Notes under the pieces: model-generated
Databases searched by the model: none
Seen by the model: the letters and a program-made list of their open reading frames with translations, nothing else
What the model was told of the DNA's origin: nothing
Shown here: positions 3,274 to 11,258 of the stretch, in pieces
Layout of the letters: every line of letters begins with the position of its first letter
How positions within the stretch are numbered: position 1 is the first letter of the stretch
NCBI GenBank assembly: GCA_023150835.1
Contig: JAKLKB010000169.1
Location: 1 to 11,593 of the forward strand
Direction of reading: 5' to 3'
DNA from: Myxococcota bacterium
Lineage (GTDB): Bacteria > Myxococcota_C > UBA6777
Length of the DNA stretch: 11,593 nucleotides
Program-made: the position numbers and the translations under genes

Positions 3274-3446
3274 CCGCTTTCTCCTCAGATGATGCTTGCG
3301 TCGCTTCTTTTGCCCTTTGTTCGGCTCTTTTCGCGACGGGTGACTCGTTCTCTTCTTCCTCAACAAAAACGCACTATACAAACCCCCTTCTATCAAGGGA
3401 AGGCCCATCCCTCCTGCCCCCCCTTTCGTGACCCTGATTTCTTTCC

Positions 3447-3475
3447 TTGACAAACCTCTTTCTTTCTTTTATTTG
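3447..3475 (+). promoter_or_regulatory. Candidate sigma70-type promoter of the PEP-utilising enzyme gene
   Basis: A perfect TTGACA at 3447-3452 is followed, after 17 bp, by TATTTG at 3470-3475, a weak -10 matching only TAT. The predicted transcription start is near 3482, leaving an 80-nt leader before ATG 3565. The TGTTCA repeats begin immediately at that start, the expected place for a repressor. The rest of the 291-bp divergent region is pyrimidine-rich on this strand. Confidence 0.5.
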
Positions 3476-3482
3476 ATGACCA

Positions 3483-3519
3483 TGTTCATCGAGTGTGTTC
3501 AATGAGCTTGTTCACTAAG
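3483..3519 (+). promoter_or_regulatory. Three 13-bp-phased TGTTCA repeats: probable TetR operator
   Basis: TGTTCATCGAG (3483-3493), TGTTCAATGAG (3496-3506) and TGTTCACTAAG (3509-3519) are direct repeats at exact 13-bp spacing, each sharing TGTTCA plus a trailing AG. The middle unit is identical over 11 bp to 8642-8652 in front of the tetR-type gene. The array lies at the predicted transcription start of the 843-aa enzyme, so bound protein would block transcription. That the TetR protein of this window binds here is inferred. Confidence 0.55.
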
Positions 3520-3564
3520 AAATGAGACGGGGATCTCCGAGCGGAAGAGAAGGCGGGTAAAGAC

Positions 3565-6096
3565 ATGGCGGTGCATTGGTTTGGAGACGAAGAGACGAAG
3601 GAACTGAGTTTGGTGGGAGGGAAGGGCTGGAATCTGGGCGAGATGTATCGTGCAGGATTTCCAGTACCGAAGGGTTTTTGTGTGAGCGCAAAAGCGTATG
3701 AGCGTGTGTTAAAGATGCCGAGGATGTGGGAGCAGATCAGCGAGTATTTGGAGAAGATGAAAGGAGCGGATATCACGGCGAAACAGGTGTATGCGGAGCA
3801 GATACGTTCGTTGTGGTGGGAAGTGGAGATCCCGACAGATATCGCACAGGCTGTAAGCGAGGCTTACGAAGCGTTGGGGGGAGAGCGGTTGGTGGCGGTG
3901 CGGTCTTCGGCGACGGCGGAGGATCTGCCTGAGGCGAGCTTTGCGGGCCAACAGGAGACCTTTTTGGGGGTGAGAGGGCAAGAGTCGTTGTTGTCGAAGG
4001 TGCGGTCTTGTTGGTCTTCGTTGTGGGCGCTGCGTTCGATGGATTACCGAGAGCGACAAGGTTTTCCACATGAGAGCGTGCGGCTGTCGGTGGTTGTGCA
4101 GGAGATGATCTCGCCCGATGTTGCGGGAGTGTTGTTTACGGTAAATCCGTTGAATGGGCAGCCACAGCAGATGCTGTTGAATGCGTCGTATGGACTTGGA
4201 GAGACGGTGGTTTCGGGGCGGGTGACACCGGATACATACACGTTGCACAAGGGCGAGCCGTTGCGTGTGATCGAACGTGTGTTGGGTGAGAAGGCCGAGC
4301 GTTTGGATATGTTGCCTGAGAGCGGAACGGTGGCAACGCCCGTGGATGCGGAGGCAAGGGGCCGCTTTTCTTTGAGCGAGGGTGCGTTGCAAAAGCTGGT
4401 GCAGCTCGGGATGCGGGTGGAAGGGCATTACAGCGCGCCACAAGATATCGAGTGGGGTGTGGTGGGAGAGGACGTGTTTTTGTTGCAAACGCGGCCGATC
4501 ACGACGCTTGCGCAGATCCCGCCGTCTGTGGAGGTGAGACCCACGAAGAAACTATCTTCTCTTCAATCACGGATCTTGGACGATATCTTGGAGCATTTTC
4601 CTGACGCTCCGTATCCCTTGGATCATGCGTCGGTGGTCGATACGTATCAGCAATTCTTGGATGCGACGCGGGCTTTGGGGATCACCATGACCGAGGCCAA
4701 GCAGATGATCCGTATGGACGAGGAGGGTCGGCCTTTTGTGGAGATCGGGCGGATGGGGGCGAATCTGCGGTTGTTGGGGTTGCCGTGGATTGTTTGGCGC
4801 AAGATGCGGCGAGATCCGTCGTTGTGGAGAACAGCCGAAGAAGAAGGGGTTGCGCTGCGTTTGCAAGCGCTTGGAGAAGTGGATCTCGATCCTCTCGATG
4901 ACAAGGGACTTGTGGAGCATACAAAACAAGCGAATGCTTTGGCTTCGGCGGTGGGCAAGACGCGCTTTGCGGACTACATCTATCCAGCGATCTTGCGCTC
5001 TGTTTGGCTCAAGCTGTTGATGCGTTTGGCGGGGCAGCGCGGAGCAGAGAGCTTTGATCTGTTGGGCGATCTCTCCTTCAAGACCGCAGAGATCCATCAT
5101 GCTTTGTCCGAAATGGCGAAGACAGCGCGGCGCGTCCCTTCGGTGGCGGCTTGGTTTCGTGAGGCGACGCCTCCGCTGCGTCTGGAGGATGTCGCACAAA
5201 ATCCCGAAGCATCGGCGTTTGTGACCGAGTTTGGTGCATTTTTGAAGCGCTACGGAGCGCGCACAAACAAGGTGTATCTGCCTTTTTCCAATCTTTCGTG
5301 GGGTGAACAGCCTTCGGCGCTGCTTGCGACGCTTGCGGTGATGGTGCGTTCTTCCGAAGCAGAACAAGACGAAGAGGCCCAACGCATCGAGCGATATCGC
5401 CAGCTTGTGCAACGGATCACGGCGAAGTTGCCGTGGTTGTTGAGGCGGTCTTTTACGCGGACGCTGGAGCGTTTTCGTGAAGGGCATATCGCACGAGAAG
5501 CCACGTTGTTTGCGATCGAAGGGGCTTTTGTGCAGGCGCGGCGCGGGGTGTATGCTTTGGCGCAGCGCTTTGTTGCACGAGGTCTGCTGCAAGACGCAAA
5601 CGATGTGCGCTATCTTACACTCGAAGAGATCGAGGGGGGCGTTGACAAAAAGCTCGAACCAGAAGCGATCAAGGCGAGGGTTGCGTCACGGAAAAAAGCG
5701 CGTCGAACAGCGCAGTCCTTTTGGCAAGCAAGGCCCATCCTCTCAGGAAGCTCCGAAAAAGGCGTATACAAGGGCATTGCAGGAAGCCCGGGCCAAGCGA
5801 CAGGAACGGTTTGTGTGGTGATGGGTGTCGATGCGTTTTTTAAGCTGCAAGAAGGGGATATCTTGGTCTGCCCTTACACAGATCCAACATGGACGCCGCT
5901 GTTTGCGATGGCGTCAGCGGTTGTGGCCGACACAGGCGGGCCTCTTTCACACGCCGCGATTGTTGCGCGAGAGTACCAGATCCCCGCTGTCTTGGGTTTG
6001 TCCAACGCCACCACGATCTTCCAAGATGGGATGCGCGTCTCTGTGGACGGAACAACGGGCCTCGTGCGCATCTTGGCGCAAGTGTCCGAGGCGTAG
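3565..6096 (+). CDS. PEP-utilising / PEP-synthase-like phosphotransferase with rifampicin-phosphotransferase-like architecture
   Basis: The product has 843 residues; ATG 3565 follows an AAGGCGG-type site. Residues 1-313 form the PPDK/PEP-synthase ATP-grasp domain: LVGGKGWNLGEM (16-27), VPKGF (34-38), VAVRSSATAEDLPEASFAGQ (110-129), QEMISPDVAGVLFTVNP (179-195), NASYGLGE (206-213), and LLQTRPIT (306-313). Residues about 320-735 form a long, mostly helical region. Residues 737-843 form the swivelling phosphohistidine domain, starting GIAGSPG, with VADTGGPLSHAAIVARE carrying the predicted phosphohistidine His796. In PEP synthase and PPDK this domain is central and followed by a PEP-binding TIM barrel; here the protein ends after it. 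That order (ATP-grasp, helical substrate region, C-terminal His domain) and the length match rifampicin phosphotransferase (about 867 aa), which moves the ATP beta-phosphate to the drug. The substrate here is unknown because the middle domain is the variable part. It probably heads an operon with the next gene. Confidence 0.9.
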   Translation: MAVHWFGDEETKELSLVGGKGWNLGEMYRAGFPVPKGFCVSAKAYERVLKMPRMWEQISEYLEKMKGADITAKQVYAEQIRSLWWEVEIPTDIAQAVSEAYEALGGERLVAVRSSATAEDLPEASFAGQQETFLGVRGQESLLSKVRSCWSSLWALRSMDYRERQGFPHESVRLSVVVQEMISPDVAGVLFTVNPLNGQPQQMLLNASYGLGETVVSGRVTPDTYTLHKGEPLRVIERVLGEKAERLDMLPESGTVATPVDAEARGRFSLSEGALQKLVQLGMRVEGHYSAPQDIEWGVVGEDVFLLQTRPITTLAQIPPSVEVRPTKKLSSLQSRILDDILEHFPDAPYPLDHASVVDTYQQFLDATRALGITMTEAKQMIRMDEEGRPFVEIGRMGANLRLLGLPWIVWRKMRRDPSLWRTAEEEGVALRLQALGEVDLDPLDDKGLVEHTKQANALASAVGKTRFADYIYPAILRSVWLKLLMRLAGQRGAESFDLLGDLSFKTAEIHHALSEMAKTARRVPSVAAWFREATPPLRLEDVAQNPEASAFVTEFGAFLKRYGARTNKVYLPFSNLSWGEQPSALLATLAVMVRSSEAEQDEEAQRIERYRQLVQRITAKLPWLLRRSFTRTLERFREGHIAREATLFAIEGAFVQARRGVYALAQRFVARGLLQDANDVRYLTLEEIEGGVDKKLEPEAIKARVASRKKARRTAQSFWQARPILSGSSEKGVYKGIAGSPGQATGTVCVVMGVDAFFKLQEGDILVCPYTDPTWTPLFAMASAVVADTGGPLSHAAIVAREYQIPAVLGLSNATTIFQDGMRVSVDGTTGLVRILAQVSEA

Positions 6097-6109
6097 CGTT
6101 ATTTCGCCG

Positions 6110-6232
6110 TTGTTGTGTGTTGCGGATGAGCCGAGGTGATCGATGTGAAGTGTGCTGTGGCCTTTGTTGTTTGTTGCGGATGAACCGAGGTGATCGATGT
6201 TAAGCGTGCTGTGGCCTTCGTTGTTTGTTGCG
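6110..6232 (+). repeat. 54-bp tandem duplication spanning a ribosome-binding site and start codon
   Basis: Copy 1 (6110-6163) and copy 2 (6164-6217) match at 50 of 54 positions, and a third partial copy runs over 6218-6232. Each full copy contains GAGGTGATCGATG, a ribosome-binding site and ATG. Copy 2 supplies the start of the membrane-protein gene. Copy 1 reads ATG-TGA at 6143-6148 because of one substitution, giving a start directly followed by stop. The period is 18 codons, so the duplication is in frame. Confidence 0.9.
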
Positions 6233-6859
6233 TTGAGCGGATCGTTGTCTGTGGGATCGATCTTGATCGTGCTGTTGTTGTTGAGCAGCCAGCGCGGGGC
6301 GTGGGTTGCTTCTTCGTATGTTTTCGGATACTGCGCGGGATATCTTAGCTTGGGCGGAGTTCTCTGGCTCGCAAGTCAACGCACTGCCGCGCTTTCCGTT
6401 TCCAAAACCGTCTCATCCAGCGTGTTGATCGGCTTGGGCGGGCTGTTGTTGTTCTTTGCCTTCCGTTCGTGGAAAAAAGAGGCATCCGAAGAAAAACCGA
6501 GCTTTTTTTCTTTTTTTGATGCGATCTCTCCCCAAAAATCTGCTTTCTTTGGGTTTCTTGTGGCATTACTCAATGTCAAAAATCTGGCTCTTTTTTTGTC
6601 CTCACTTTCTTTTTTGCTTGCAAGTCATCTTGCGATCAACGAAGGGCTTGTTGTCTTGTTTTCGATCGTCCTTGTTTTTTGTTTTGGAGTGTATTTACCG
6701 CTGTTTGTGTACCTACTTTTTCCTAAGCGCTCTGCTGCTTTTTTGGCGTGGATGCGTTGGTGGCTTGAGGCCAAAAAGCGCGCCTTGTCGATCGGCGTGT
6801 TGCTCTTCTTTGGAGTGATCTTTTCGGGTCGTGGCTTACTGTTTTTTTTGAGGGGATGA
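6197..6859 (+). CDS. Six-helix membrane protein, probable GAP / Sap (sulfolipid-1-addressing-like) family
   Basis: The 220-residue inner-membrane protein starts at ATG 6197, just after GAGGTGATCG. Hydrophobic spans lie at about 7-30, 36-59, 72-90, 114-143, 148-176 and 196-217. A basic/acidic loop (RSWKKEASEEK, 90-100) and SPQKSAFFGFLVALLNVKNLALFL (111-134) match the GAP/SfLAP pattern of a loop, then SP...GF..A.LN.KNL at the head of helix 4. This family is LysE-like and is linked to export or addressing of lipids and small molecules, mainly from actinobacterial work, so the substrate is unknown. It starts 100 bp after the PEP-utilising enzyme on the same strand, with the 54-bp duplication between; shared transcription is likely. 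Family assignment rests on topology and the LNxKNL motif, so a LysE/RhtB-type exporter is the alternative. Confidence 0.75.
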   Translation: MLSVLWPSLFVALSGSLSVGSILIVLLLLSSQRGAWVASSYVFGYCAGYLSLGGVLWLASQRTAALSVSKTVSSSVLIGLGGLLLFFAFRSWKKEASEEKPSFFSFFDAISPQKSAFFGFLVALLNVKNLALFLSSLSFLLASHLAINEGLVVLFSIVLVFCFGVYLPLFVYLLFPKRSAAFLAWMRWWLEAKKRALSIGVLLFFGVIFSGRGLLFFLRG

Positions 6860-6927
6860 TAATACAGGCGGATCTCGTATGACGGGCGGGGATGATACAA
6901 CAGGCGGATCTCATATTATGGGCGGGG
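6852..6927. repeat. 36-bp tandem duplication between convergent genes
   Basis: Copies at 6852-6887 and 6888-6923 match at 31 of 36 positions, and 6924-6927 (GGGG) begins a third. The first copy contains the TGA of the membrane-protein gene and the second the TAA of the leftward lipoprotein gene. No hairpin plus T-run terminator was found here. Confidence 0.85.
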
Positions 6928-7398
6928 AGAGGTGACACGAGAAAAGAGCAAGGGTTGTTTTTTTCCCGTGTCATCGCTTGCACAGACGATCTTTTCTTTG
7001 CTCCAAGAACACAGCGAGATCGCGGCTTCTGTTTTTCCTTGAGGTGTGAGTGTGAGCTTCAATCGGCCTTCCACAAATCGCCATTCGCCCCGATCGACCT
7101 GTGTTTCTACATGGCCTTTGATCAACGGATTGATCATCGCCATCTTCATCTCTGCCGAACCATCGGAGCGTAGCACCAAGATCACACCCATGCGCCCCAA
7201 CATCGCTCTCTGGAATTGCGCGAATTGCGCTTTTTCTTTCGGAAGCCCTGCGACTTCTTCGCGGGCGACTTGTTTCATCGCACTCTCTTCGAGCCGGTAC
7301 TCTCCCGCCACTTCACTGGCTTTGCAGCCTGTGCCGATCAACAAAAGCGCCGTCCATCCGAGCGTTCCCGCGAGTTTTCGCACACCATACCAATCCAT
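6916..7398 (-). CDS. Small predicted lipoprotein of unknown function
   Basis: The 160-residue product starts at ATG 7398, with GGAG 7 nt upstream. Residues 12-25 are hydrophobic and end LLIGTGC, an acceptable lipobox with Cys25, so it is probably a periplasm-facing lipoprotein. The mature part starts VAGEYRLEESAMK, a helical region (38-68), then strand-like VILVLRSDGSAEMKMAMINP, RGEWRFVEGRLKLTLTP, and two Cys (LCSW and VCAS) before LLFSRV. 'GEY.L...' followed by a helix and a small beta barrel recalls lipocalin-like exported proteins, but this is only an impression. It is a diverged paralogue of the gene 13 bp upstream (same layout, NP, EW, two Cys, LxFxR), and the two are almost certainly co-transcribed. 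Confidence 0.78.
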   Translation of the reverse strand: MDWYGVRKLAGTLGWTALLLIGTGCKASEVAGEYRLEESAMKQVAREEVAGLPKEKAQFAQFQRAMLGRMGVILVLRSDGSAEMKMAMINPLIKGHVETQVDRGEWRFVEGRLKLTLTPQGKTEAAISLCSWSKEKIVCASDDTGKKQPLLFSRVTSPRP

Positions 7399-7411
7399 CT
7401 TTTTTCTCCAT

Positions 7412-7888
7412 CTATTTTTTGCGACGCCGAAAATAAAGCTGCGGGATGCCTTTGGCGTCTTTGCAGTTCAGGTGCTCGCCTTCTCGCAAGCAAAACAGCG
7501 TTTTTTTGCCGCGTTTGTCTTTGGGCGGGCCGATCACGAGGTGCGCACCGTCGATCTTCCATTCCATCTCGTCGGTCTTGCTTTTTGGTTTTTCTGTAAA
7601 CGGGTTGACGGCTTTGGATTCAAGGATCGCGACTTTCTTCGGAGAGAAGCGCAAAGTCAGTTTGACGCGCATCTTTTGGATGGAGGCGATCATGCGCTTG
7701 ATCATCGGTTGCGCATTCGCTGGCAGCTTTGCAAAACGTGGCTTGAGTGTTTCCAAAAGCCGCTCTCTGTCTAGCGTATAACGCTCTTCTTTTTGATCGC
7801 TCGGTGCTTTGGGCTTTGTTTTGTTGTCTCCGCCGTTCCACAAAAACGGAACGAATGCCAACAAGATCAAACACTCACGCAAACGCAT
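7412..7888 (-). CDS. Small exported protein, paralogue of the adjacent lipoprotein
   Basis: The 158-residue product starts at ATG 7888, supported by AAGGAG 7 nt upstream. The frame is open to 8104, but the extra 72 residues overlap the TetR gene and look non-coding. Residues 7-17 are hydrophobic, a short export signal ending FLWNGGDNK. No lipobox Cys is present, unlike the paralogue, so it may be cleaved differently or stay membrane-anchored. The rest has RYTLDRERLLETLKPRF, a helical stretch, RVKLTLRFSPKKVAILESKAVNP, DEMEWKIDGAHLVIGPP, Cys in LFCLREGEHLNC, and LYFRRRKK at the end. It is very Lys/Arg-rich. It follows the TetR gene by 112 bp and precedes the lipoprotein by 13 bp, so it may be in the TetR transcript. 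No enzymatic motif is seen. Confidence 0.75.
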   Translation of the reverse strand: MRLRECLILLAFVPFLWNGGDNKTKPKAPSDQKEERYTLDRERLLETLKPRFAKLPANAQPMIKRMIASIQKMRVKLTLRFSPKKVAILESKAVNPFTEKPKSKTDEMEWKIDGAHLVIGPPKDKRGKKTLFCLREGEHLNCKDAKGIPQLYFRRRKK

Positions 7889-8000
7889 TCTCAACTCCTT
7901 CGGGGTATTCGACTTTTCCCTTGCCTTTGCTTTGTACCGCCGTGACGCGGACGACTCTCTGTTGTGCGGCCTTTTGCAAGATGCACAAACAAGCCCTTCT

Positions 8001-8612
8001 TCACAAGCCCCCACTTGCTCGGTAGCCCCGTAAAGATTGCTCGAACAGTCGCAAAAACATCTCCACAAAATGTTCCACAGGCTCCATCCCCTCGCGCAAT
8101 CCAAAGATCAATGCCAACTGATAATGCGACCACACCCCCATACAGGCCAAGCCGATATCCAAGTCCTCTCGTAGCCGACCTTGCGCACGTTCTTGTTCCA
8201 ATAAGCCCGCCACCCAGTCCAAAAAGCCCGCTGCTTGGACCGCCATGCGCTCTCCCCATTCACCTTGCAAAAAAAACACGTGCTGCACCAACGTCCGCGA
8301 AAGTGACGGATTCTCCGCATAACGTGTAAACAAACAACGCATCATGTGCTCCAGTTGGGACTCTATCTTGGCCGTCCGATCGAGGCTTGCATACGCAACC
8401 TCCATCGTCTCCTCTATAAACTCGTAAAAGATCGCCGCCAGCAAAGAAGGCTTGTCTGGAAAGTGCGCAAACACCGTCCCCGTCGCAACCCCCGCATGTT
8501 GCGCCAATTGCCGCATCGTCGTCTCTTCGTACCCACGCTCTACAAACAACGCCCGCGCTGACGACAACAACGTCGCTCGCGTCTCTTCTTTTTGTTGCTC
8601 TCGCTTGCCCAA
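8001..8612 (-). CDS. TetR-family transcriptional regulator
   Basis: A cytoplasmic dimeric DNA-binding repressor in known family members. The N-terminal domain is standard TetR: EETRATLLSSARALFVERGYEE (helix 1), TTMRQLAQHAGVATGTVFAHF (helix-turn-helix), then PDKPSLLAAIFYEF. The C-terminal part is helical and variable, as expected for ligand binding. No ATG exists near the start. TTG 8648 (215 aa) has no ribosome-binding site and lies inside the predicted operator; TTG 8612 (203 aa) has AAAGG 9 nt upstream and leaves about 11 residues before helix 1, normal for the family. I therefore prefer 8612. The gene probably regulates itself through the inverted repeat at 8641-8668 and the enzyme gene at 3565 through related repeats. 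The ligand is unknown. Confidence 0.93.
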   Translation of the reverse strand: MGKREQQKEETRATLLSSARALFVERGYEETTMRQLAQHAGVATGTVFAHFPDKPSLLAAIFYEFIEETMEVAYASLDRTAKIESQLEHMMRCLFTRYAENPSLSRTLVQHVFFLQGEWGERMAVQAAGFLDWVAGLLEQERAQGRLREDLDIGLACMGVWSHYQLALIFGLREGMEPVEHFVEMFLRLFEQSLRGYRASGGL

Positions 8613-8640
8613 TCTGTCTCGCCTTTCTTCTTGTGTGAAC

Positions 8641-8668
8641 TTGTTCAATGAGTTTGATCAATGAACAA
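8641..8668. promoter_or_regulatory. Inverted-repeat operator in front of the TetR gene
   Basis: TTGTTCAATGA, 6 bp, TCAATGAACAA: 11-bp arms with one mismatch. The left half, TGTTCAATGAG, is identical to 3496-3506, and the following 13 bp (TTTGATCAATGAA against CTTGTTCACTAAG) also align partly. The site lies just downstream of the predicted promoter at 8712-8684, the usual arrangement for autorepression by a TetR protein. Confidence 0.65.
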
Positions 8669-8683
8669 GGTCAGCCCACGCAA

Positions 8684-8712
8684 AAGATAGCGCGCAGCCT
8701 CCAAAAAGCCAA
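8684..8712 (-). promoter_or_regulatory. Candidate promoter of the TetR gene
   Basis: Read leftward: TTGGCT (8712-8707), 17 bp, TATCTT (8689-8684), each matching 4 of 6 consensus bases. The predicted start is near 8677, placing the inverted repeat at about +10 to +37 and leaving a leader of about 65 nt to TTG 8612. If correct, TTG 8648 would have only a short leader lacking a ribosome-binding site. Confidence 0.4.
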
Positions 8713-9160: not shown

Positions 9161-9552
9161 CACGGAAAGCACGGAAAGCACGGAAAGTACGGAAAGTACG
9201 GAAAGTACGGAAAGTACGGAAAGTACGGAAAGTACGGAAAGTACGGAAAGTACGGAAAGTACGGAAAGTGCGGAAAGTGCGGAAAGTACGGAAAGTGCGG
9301 AAAATGCGGAAAGTGCGGAAAGTGCGGTAAGTACGGAAAGTGCGGAAAGTGCGGAAAGTGCGGAAAGTGCGGAAAGTGCGGAAAGTACGGAAAGTACGGA
9401 AAGTACGGAAAGTACGGAAAGTACGGAAAGTGCGGAAAGTACGGAAAGTACGGAAAGTACGGAAAGTACGGAAAATACGGAAAGTACGGAAAGTACGGAA
9501 AGTACGGAAAGTACGGAAAGTACGGAAAGTGCGGAAAGTGCGGAAAGTACGG
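9161..9552 (+). repeat. Minisatellite: 43 tandem copies of a 9-bp unit
   Basis: Read as 9-mers xxCGGAAAG, 43 units fill 9161-9547 and a partial unit follows to 9552. Variation is almost confined to the first two bases: CA in units 1-3, TA in 26 units, TG in 14. Only units 16 and 35 (GGAAAA) and 19 (GGTAAG) differ elsewhere. TG units cluster in the middle (13-14, 16-19, 21-25) and at the end (42-43), between homogeneous TA blocks, as expected from block-wise slippage or unequal exchange. Nine is a multiple of three and the unit has no stop, so all six frames stay open; one frame would encode GK(Y/C) repeats. I regard it as non-coding. Confidence 0.95.
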
Positions 9553-9797: not shown

Positions 9798-9902
9798 CCC
9801 CCCGTAGGGGGGATTGAGGGGGGATTGAGGGGGGATTGAGGGGGGATTGAGGGGGGATTGAGGGGGGATTGAGGGGGGATTGAGGGGGGATTGAGGGGGG
9901 GG
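9798..9902 (+). repeat. G6-tract array: 8 tandem copies of GGGGGGATTGA, preceded by a C6/G6 hairpin
   Basis: Eight 11-bp units fill 9807-9894 and a run of eight G follows to 9902, so nine G-tracts of at least six are separated by ATTGA. Such spacing is well suited to G-quadruplex formation on the plus strand. Immediately before it, CCCCCC (9798-9803), GTA, GGGGGG can form a hairpin with the first tract. The 11-bp period is close to one helical turn. Confidence 0.93.
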
Positions 9903-10325: not shown

Positions 10326-10532
10326 TTATTTGCACTGGCCGTTTTGGCAGACTTGGCCAGCGGCGCAATTGGCGTTGCTTGTGCAGGGGGTGGTGTGAGG
10401 TTGGCATTGGCCATTTTGGCAGACTTGGCCAGCGGCGCAATCGGCGTCGCTTGCGCAGGGGGTGATGTGAGGTTGGCATTGGCCGTTTGAGCAGACTTGG
10501 CCAGCGGCGCAATCGGCGTTGCTTGCGCATGG
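10326..10532 (-). repeat. 72-bp in-frame tandem repeats at the 3' end of the Cys-rich gene
   Basis: Units at 10532-10461, 10460-10389 and 10388-10326 (the last shortened by the stop codon) each encode P-C-(A/T)-S-(N/D)-A-(D/N)-C-AAGQVC-x-NGQC. DNA identity is high between units, so copy number could change by slippage without breaking the frame. Confidence 0.9.
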
Positions 10533-11258
10533 CGGCGGAACAACGGGCTTGCAGGAGCCTGCTTTGCAACCTGTGCCGATGCCACATTTTTGGCCGCAAG
10601 CACCGCAATGATCGTTGTTGGTTTGGAGATCGACGCAGATCGAGCCACAACGGGTCTGACCAGACGGGCAAGTGCAGTTGTTGTCGATTACGCCGTCGCA
10701 GTCGTCATCAAGGCCGTTGCAGATCTCTGTCGAAGCTTTACAAGCGATGTCGCATTTCCCGCTGCTTTGGTTCTTGACGAAGTTTGTGTTGCATTGGCAA
10801 GTTCCGTCTTTGAGGCAAGTTCCCGCTAAGGCCGACATCTCAAGACGGTGGTTGCAGGTTTGATCTTGGCCGAATGTGCAGACAGGCTGGGTGACGGCCT
10901 TGCATTGGCCGTTTTGGCAGACTTGGCCCGTGGGGCATTCTGCGTTGCTTTGACAGGGTTTGGTGACGGCCTTGCATTGTCCGTTTTGGCAGGTTGAGCC
11001 GATGCCGCATTTGGTTGCGCAGGCACCGCAATGATCGTTGTTGGTGCGCAGATCGACACAGGCCGAGCCGCAGGAAGTGCCGCCTGTTGCAGCGCAGGGA
11101 TCGGCTTGAGCGATGCAGGTTCCATTTTGGCAGATGTATTTAACTGGGCAATCTTTACCGGTAATACATTCTTGGACGACACCACAGCCAGAAAAAGAGG
11201 TCAGCCAAAGGCAACAAACAAGGGCCAATGGAATGGGATAAAAACGCAATCGATACAT
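10326..11258 (-). CDS. Cys-rich repeat lipoprotein with Stig1-like and MopE-type motifs
   Basis: The 310-residue product starts at ATG 11258 with GGAG 8 nt upstream. Residues 10-25 are hydrophobic and end SFSGC, a lipobox with Cys25, suggesting a lipoprotein displayed in the periplasm or at the surface. Two Stig1-like modules (63-95 and 204-236) share CVDLxTNNDHCGAC..KCGIG..C..G.CK. EICNGLDDDCDGVIDNNC (178-195) is the putative metal-binding motif known from MopE-type proteins. Five copies of C-x5-C-x5-C-x-NG-x-C begin at Cys31, 102, 244, 268 and 292; the last three are tandem 24-residue units with PH(I/T)T linkers, and the protein ends inside the third. Many Cys residues imply disulfide-bonded knots outside the cytoplasm. 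Such mosaics are frequent in Myxococcota and their roles (adhesion, matrix, metal binding) are mostly unproven. It appears to be a single-gene unit. Confidence 0.88.
   Translation of the reverse strand: MYRLRFYPIPLALVCCLWLTSFSGCGVVQECITGKDCPVKYICQNGTCIAQADPCAATGGTSCGSACVDLRTNNDHCGACATKCGIGSTCQNGQCKAVTKPCQSNAECPTGQVCQNGQCKAVTQPVCTFGQDQTCNHRLEMSALAGTCLKDGTCQCNTNFVKNQSSGKCDIACKASTEICNGLDDDCDGVIDNNCTCPSGQTRCGSICVDLQTNNDHCGACGQKCGIGTGCKAGSCKPVVPPPCASNADCAAGQVCSNGQCQPHITPCASDADCAAGQVCQNGQCQPHTTPCTSNANCAAGQVCQNGQCK

Follow-up and report, generated by a model that had tools for sequence, protein, structure and literature searches.

Does a TetR-family regulator control a PEP-utilising enzyme gene that lies 5 kb from its own gene? 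The question arises from a window (the whole stretch of DNA analysed, 11,593 nucleotides) in which the promoters of the two genes share an operator-like sequence. An earlier note on this DNA had proposed a TetR regulon whose main target lies 5 kb away, across a convergent gene pair. The distance and the convergence hold; what intervenes is two convergent operons, PEP-enzyme-SfLAP and tetR-orf-orf (Table 1). At a probability of roughly 0.84, our reading of the sequence is that TetR is an autoregulated repressor with one other main target, acting at putative operators downstream of the -10 elements of these two operons.

Table 1. Coordinates of the genes, putative promoters and candidate operators in the window
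Feature	Position	Strand	Details
Putative promoter, PEP-enzyme operon	3447..3475	+	-35 TTGACA 3447-3452, 17-bp spacer, -10 TATTTG 3470-3475; by eye
Operator A (candidate)	3477..3514	+	units TGACCATGTTCA-t-CGAGTGTGTTCA-a-TGAGCTTGTTCA; first unit one base past -10
PEP-utilising enzyme, predicted target	3565..6096	+	843 aa; PPDK_N ATP domain 15-317, His swivel domain 762-832
SfLAP/Sap-like membrane protein (PF11139)	6197..6859	+	probably in PEP-enzyme operon
Small predicted lipoprotein	6916..7398	-	probably downstream in tetR operon; no Pfam family
Small predicted exported protein	7412..7891	-	probably downstream in tetR operon; no Pfam family
tetR	8001..8612	-	PF00440 E=2.9e-16; likely start TTG 8612
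Operator B (candidate)	8636..8673	-	units, + strand letters: TGAACTTGTTCA-a-TGAGTTTGATCA-a-TGAACAAGGTCA
Putative tetR promoter	8684..8712	-	-35 TTGGCT 8712-8707, 17-bp spacer, -10 TATCTT 8689-8684; by eye

The array at the two promoters

As had been noticed before, the 11-mer TGTTCAATGAG occurs exactly at 3496-3506 and 8642-8652; it has no further copy within the window. Each copy is part of an array of three tandem 13-bp units, site A ahead of the enzyme gene and site B ahead of tetR. The unit consensus is TGAACNNGTTCA at both sites, and every unit is the palindrome TGAAC-NN-GTTCA in imperfect form. The earlier note had described three direct repeats with a 13-bp phase at site A and an inverted repeat at site B, and had called the combination of directly phased and dyad-symmetric repeats unusual for TetR sites. 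Both elements exist: TGTTCA is found at 3483, 3496 and 3509, and the 28-bp inverted repeat TTGTTCAATGAGTTTGATCAATGAACAA spans 8641-8668. The apparent mixture is an artefact: each is a partial view of a single triple tandem palindrome. In site A each direct repeat starts at the right half of a unit; the left half-sites there are degenerate (unit 2 matches at 2 of 5 positions). The inverted repeat has its centre at unit 2 of site B and thus shows that this array is symmetrical as a whole. Since a single triple-unit model fits both sites, a division into direct-repeat and inverted-repeat site types was ruled out.

Comparison with related arrays (described below) indicates which dyad a dimer would bind. 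Among relatives, the spacing between units is 1, 2, 4 or 5 bp, while the N2 within TGAAC-NN-GTTCA is invariant. Since the spacer is constant and the distance from unit to unit is variable, TGAAC-NN-GTTCA is the likely dimer site, and the dyad at the unit junctions (GTTCA-N-TGAAC) is a less likely one.

Neither putative promoter was called by an automatic sigma-70 consensus scan. The PEP-enzyme promoter, whose -35 is a perfect TTGACA, was missed because its -10 is poor; the tetR promoter matches at 4 of 6 positions in each hexamer. The operators begin 1 bp (A) and 11 bp (B) past these plausible -10 elements, consistent with the earlier description of sites just downstream of a promoter. Each array would therefore coincide with, or follow, the predicted start site, a placement that fits classical repression. 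At the tetR end the reading frame is open up to TTG 8648, which is probably not used as the start codon. TTG 8612 agrees with the N-termini of orthologues in an alignment and is preceded by an AGG-type ribosome site, GAAGAAAGGCGAGACAGATTG. With this start, operator B falls outside the coding sequence, in the leader.

The position of the arrays also bears on the direction of control. A few TetR-family members activate transcription, and the activator FasR is among the distant NCBIfam relatives of this protein, so TetR might activate the enzyme operon or act as a dual regulator. We consider this improbable, given that both arrays occupy the classical repression position. As a repressor, TetR would regulate its own synthesis, its dimers recognising three TGAAC-NN-GTTCA sites at 13-bp phase downstream of the -10 of its own operon and, likewise, of the convergent PEP-enzyme operon. 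The array may be occupied cooperatively, blocking promoter clearance or polymerase binding. At ~10.5 bp per turn, dimers 13 bp apart would be rotated by ~85 degrees, and three of them could surround the helix. A small-molecule ligand, probably the substrate of the enzyme or a relative of it, would free TetR, so that both operons are induced together.

Occurrence in the genome and in a sister genome

The earlier note held that finding the 11-mer at many unrelated positions would speak against the link. Exact copies of TGTTCAATGAG number four in the 7.56-Mb genome, and the remaining two (contigs C151 and C232) are solitary, without an array. To score arrays, we used a 30-position consensus derived from the perfect palindromes of relatives. 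Site A matched it at 25/30 and site B at 26/30, and the best score in 8 Mb of simulated sequence (first-order Markov, from the dinucleotides of the window) was 21/30. A pattern of two units, with at most 3 mismatches allowed, gave 5 overlapping matches in the window, all within sites A and B, and 0 in 200 shuffles. Genome-wide (7.56 Mb), the same 5 matches, at two loci, were the only ones, and a reversed control pattern gave 1. The R in the two-unit pattern was picked after site A had been seen, a small bias; the 30-position score has no R. The exact gapped pattern TGANNNNGTTCA-N1-5-TGANNNNGTTCA had no match in any of five genomes, since no adjacent unit pair fits it exactly. The genome-wide scan for paired sites, of the kind that had been suggested as a check, confines the array to the two promoters.

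We also compared the enzyme side of the locus with that of a sister genome of the same genus (G001), in which the enzyme is 92% identical. The core promoter (3431-3476) differs at 0 of 46 bases, compared with 18 of 157 farther upstream; the leader differs at 11 of 50. Array A differs at 3 of 38 bases. Unit 2 accounts for two of these, in its left half or spacer, and unit 3 for one, in its left half; the three GTTCA halves (15 bases) are identical throughout. The G001 contig stops within the enzyme gene, so that the comparison concerns operator A, and a search of G001 for tetR and operator B matched a dispersed repeat only. Conservation in relatives, named earlier as support for the link, is thus seen for operator A in G001 and, farther away, in related arrays upstream of TetR orthologues.

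These results bear on the possibility that the resemblance of the two sites is fortuitous, or that they belong to a family of dispersed repeats with no role in regulation, as could be suspected in a window rich in simple and dispersed repeats. With two array loci only, an empty set of shuffles, a maximum of 21/30 in 8 Mb of simulated sequence and promoter-specific conservation in G001, we regard it as extremely improbable. At the level of sequence, the case for linking the two promoters is strong.

Association of the motif with TetR

Related arrays accompany TetR relatives in other lineages. In another genus of the same family (G004), where the TetR orthologue is 34-37% identical, three units at 13-bp phase (TGAACACGTTCA-a-TGTTCATGTTCA-a-TGAACACGTTCA) sit upstream of a DoxX-like gene that heads the operon. 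A further genus of that family (G003; TetR 42% identical) has the array TGAGTGTGTTCAC-TGAGTGAACTCAT-tcat-TGAGTTTGTTCAA. The top-scoring array matches in both of these genomes (2 mismatches) sit at the TetR orthologue. In another family (G032; 35% identical), there are two perfect units 16 bp apart, TGAACGCGTTCA-attt-TGAACGTGTTCA; two TetRs from Cellulomonas each have a pair of perfect units at a distance of 14 bp, and locus L098 (43% identical) has one perfect unit, TGAACATGTTCA, shortly upstream. Among 80 broader TetR homologues, a perfect 12-mer lies near the start in only 4, against ~0.5 expected.

The neighbour of tetR in G003, G004 and G032 (loci L006, L007 and L008) is a FAD_binding_3 monooxygenase rather than the PEP enzyme, and the monooxygenase protein has no match in the genome of the window. 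Since the TetRs of these relatives keep their arrays while adjoining the monooxygenase, without the PEP enzyme, the motif appears to follow TetR and not the target gene; conservation of the target is thus only genus-deep. Longer paralogues of the PEP enzyme adjoin different TetR genes (G004, contig C29, 59412-61019; G003, contig C32, 55667-59239), so pairing of a TetR with a PEP enzyme recurs in the family. The array is absent beside these TetR genes.

A different regulator, such as Rex or a TetR paralogue, could own the arrays, with tetR merely another of its targets. The genome holds about ten further TetR-like genes, and Streptomyces Rex operators contain TGAACGCGTTCA (PMC5355995). However, the Rex operator, TTGTGAA-N4-TTCACAA (PMC5355995), is matched at only 6-10 of 14 positions by the six units, and a score of 10 is found at four unrelated places in the window as well; we rejected Rex identity because this score is no better than background. 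A global regulator such as Rex would not be expected to have its array confined to two loci, and the motif accompanies this TetR clade in other genera, and in another family, that lack the second target. We consider ownership by another regulator unlikely. The assignment to TetR rests on this comparative evidence, and the single TetR regulon proposed earlier for the tetR and PEP-enzyme promoters is supported by an array that is unique genome-wide, kept in G001, associated with TetR orthologues and placed as repression would require.

The proteins and known systems

The regulator, of about 200 aa, has the N-terminal helix-turn-helix domain of the TetR family (TetR_N, PF00440; 59.4 bits against a cut-off of 24), a divergent ligand-binding domain and, as in that family, a dyad operator at its own promoter, candidate operator B. 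It gives long alignments to solved TetR-family chains, KstR chains included. None of the named subfamilies (NCBIfam equivalogs for KstR, FadR, ScbR, AcrR and others) scored above its curated cut-off, the best being ScbR (57.1 bits against 150; KstR, 34.9 against 280).

The enzyme has the layout of an RPH-like small-molecule dikinase: a PPDK_N domain first, a His swivel domain last and a catalytic His near the C terminus. ATP-grasp and His swivel domains with a C-terminal catalytic His are shared with rifampin phosphotransferase and other small-molecule dikinases (RPH, HpeHI). Alignment to rifampin phosphotransferase predicts His796 of 843 as the catalytic residue, 47 residues before the C terminus; in the RPH family no more than 50 residues separate this His from the C terminus (PMC12167813). 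A domain search found none after PEP-utilizers (762-832), and thus no PEP-binding barrel. Unlike RPH and PEP synthase themselves, the enzyme scores far under the NCBIfam cut-offs for both: 444.3 against 999 bits for RIF_Ptrans_rph and 416.7 against 739.75 bits for PEP synthase (pyruvate, water dikinase). As it reaches neither cut-off, the most fitting name for it is RPH-like small-molecule dikinase. Its best solved matches are RPH, and no solved structure aligns to residues 372-505. The SfLAP-like gene follows on the same strand after a gap of 100 bp.

It is conceivable, if rather doubtful, that this TetR clade keeps a tandem TGAACNNGTTCA operator code and swaps the enzyme by lineage (FAD monooxygenase or RPH-like dikinase), both enzymes acting on one aromatic or drug-like compound class. 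If so, the locus would encode an inducible detoxification or catabolic system, with a three-dimer array wound round the DNA at 13-bp phase.

Multi-dimer TetR operators are already known (QacR, CprB, RolR and EthR). The QacR operator is 28 bp long and holds two dimers. EthR oligomerises cooperatively, as an octamer, on a 55-bp operator. Like EthR-ethA of Mycobacterium tuberculosis, the system described here has a long repetitive candidate operator and a predicted control of self plus one enzyme; ethR and ethA are divergent and share one operator, whereas here two operators 5 kb apart serve convergent operons. The CprB operator, of 22 bp, also takes two dimers (PMC4150764). Binding of more than one dimer to a compact operator, cooperative for QacR and CprB (PMC4150764), is predicted here from sequence, and unlike those two-dimer operators the array could hold three dimers, with centres 13 bp apart. 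Autoregulation, predicted here, is known for KstR of mycobacteria, whose sites share the AAC-NN-GTT palindrome as their core (TnnAACnnGTTnnA; PMC1995591). KstR, however, has single sites dispersed through a large regulon, whereas here a tandem array is confined to two promoters. As quoted in PMC9210681, RolR of Corynebacterium glutamicum has TGAAC/GTTCA half-sites and several dyads per operator, a pair of dimers binding a 29-bp site with TGAAC-N4-GTTCA and TTCAT-N2-ATGAA. Set against that description, the spacer here is N2, three units at 13-bp phase cover 38 bp, and two separate promoters carry them.

A literature search did not find the consensus TGAACNNGTTCA as written. The kind of system is well known, and the novelties, a triple phased operator and a swapped target, are modest. 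An RPH-like enzyme in a thinly sampled lineage (n=5 genomes of the phylum in our comparison set) gains a candidate regulator, operator code and co-regulated operon, and the locus would be a clear example of a rewired regulon, whose repressor has kept its motif and exchanged its target. Apart from the operator assignment and this rewiring, the logic is standard for TetR.

The window has other features of its own. Two tandem repeats flank the SfLAP-like gene: a 54-bp repeat in 2.4 copies (6106-6232) in the gap on the enzyme side, and a 36-bp repeat in 2.1 copies (6852-6928) in the gap on the other side. The segment 8935-8994 is a copy of a dispersed repeat of ~50-60 bp, with at least 40 further matches in the genome and at least 40 in G001. 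Beyond it lie 43 copies of the 9-bp ACGGAAAGT (9162-9552) and 8.6 exact copies of the 11-bp AGGGGGGATTG (9806-9900). Finally, a Cys-rich, lipoprotein-like protein is encoded at 10326-11258 on the minus strand; its matches are of the STIG1/Dickkopf/DUF7107 type, and a 72-bp repeat lies within the gene.
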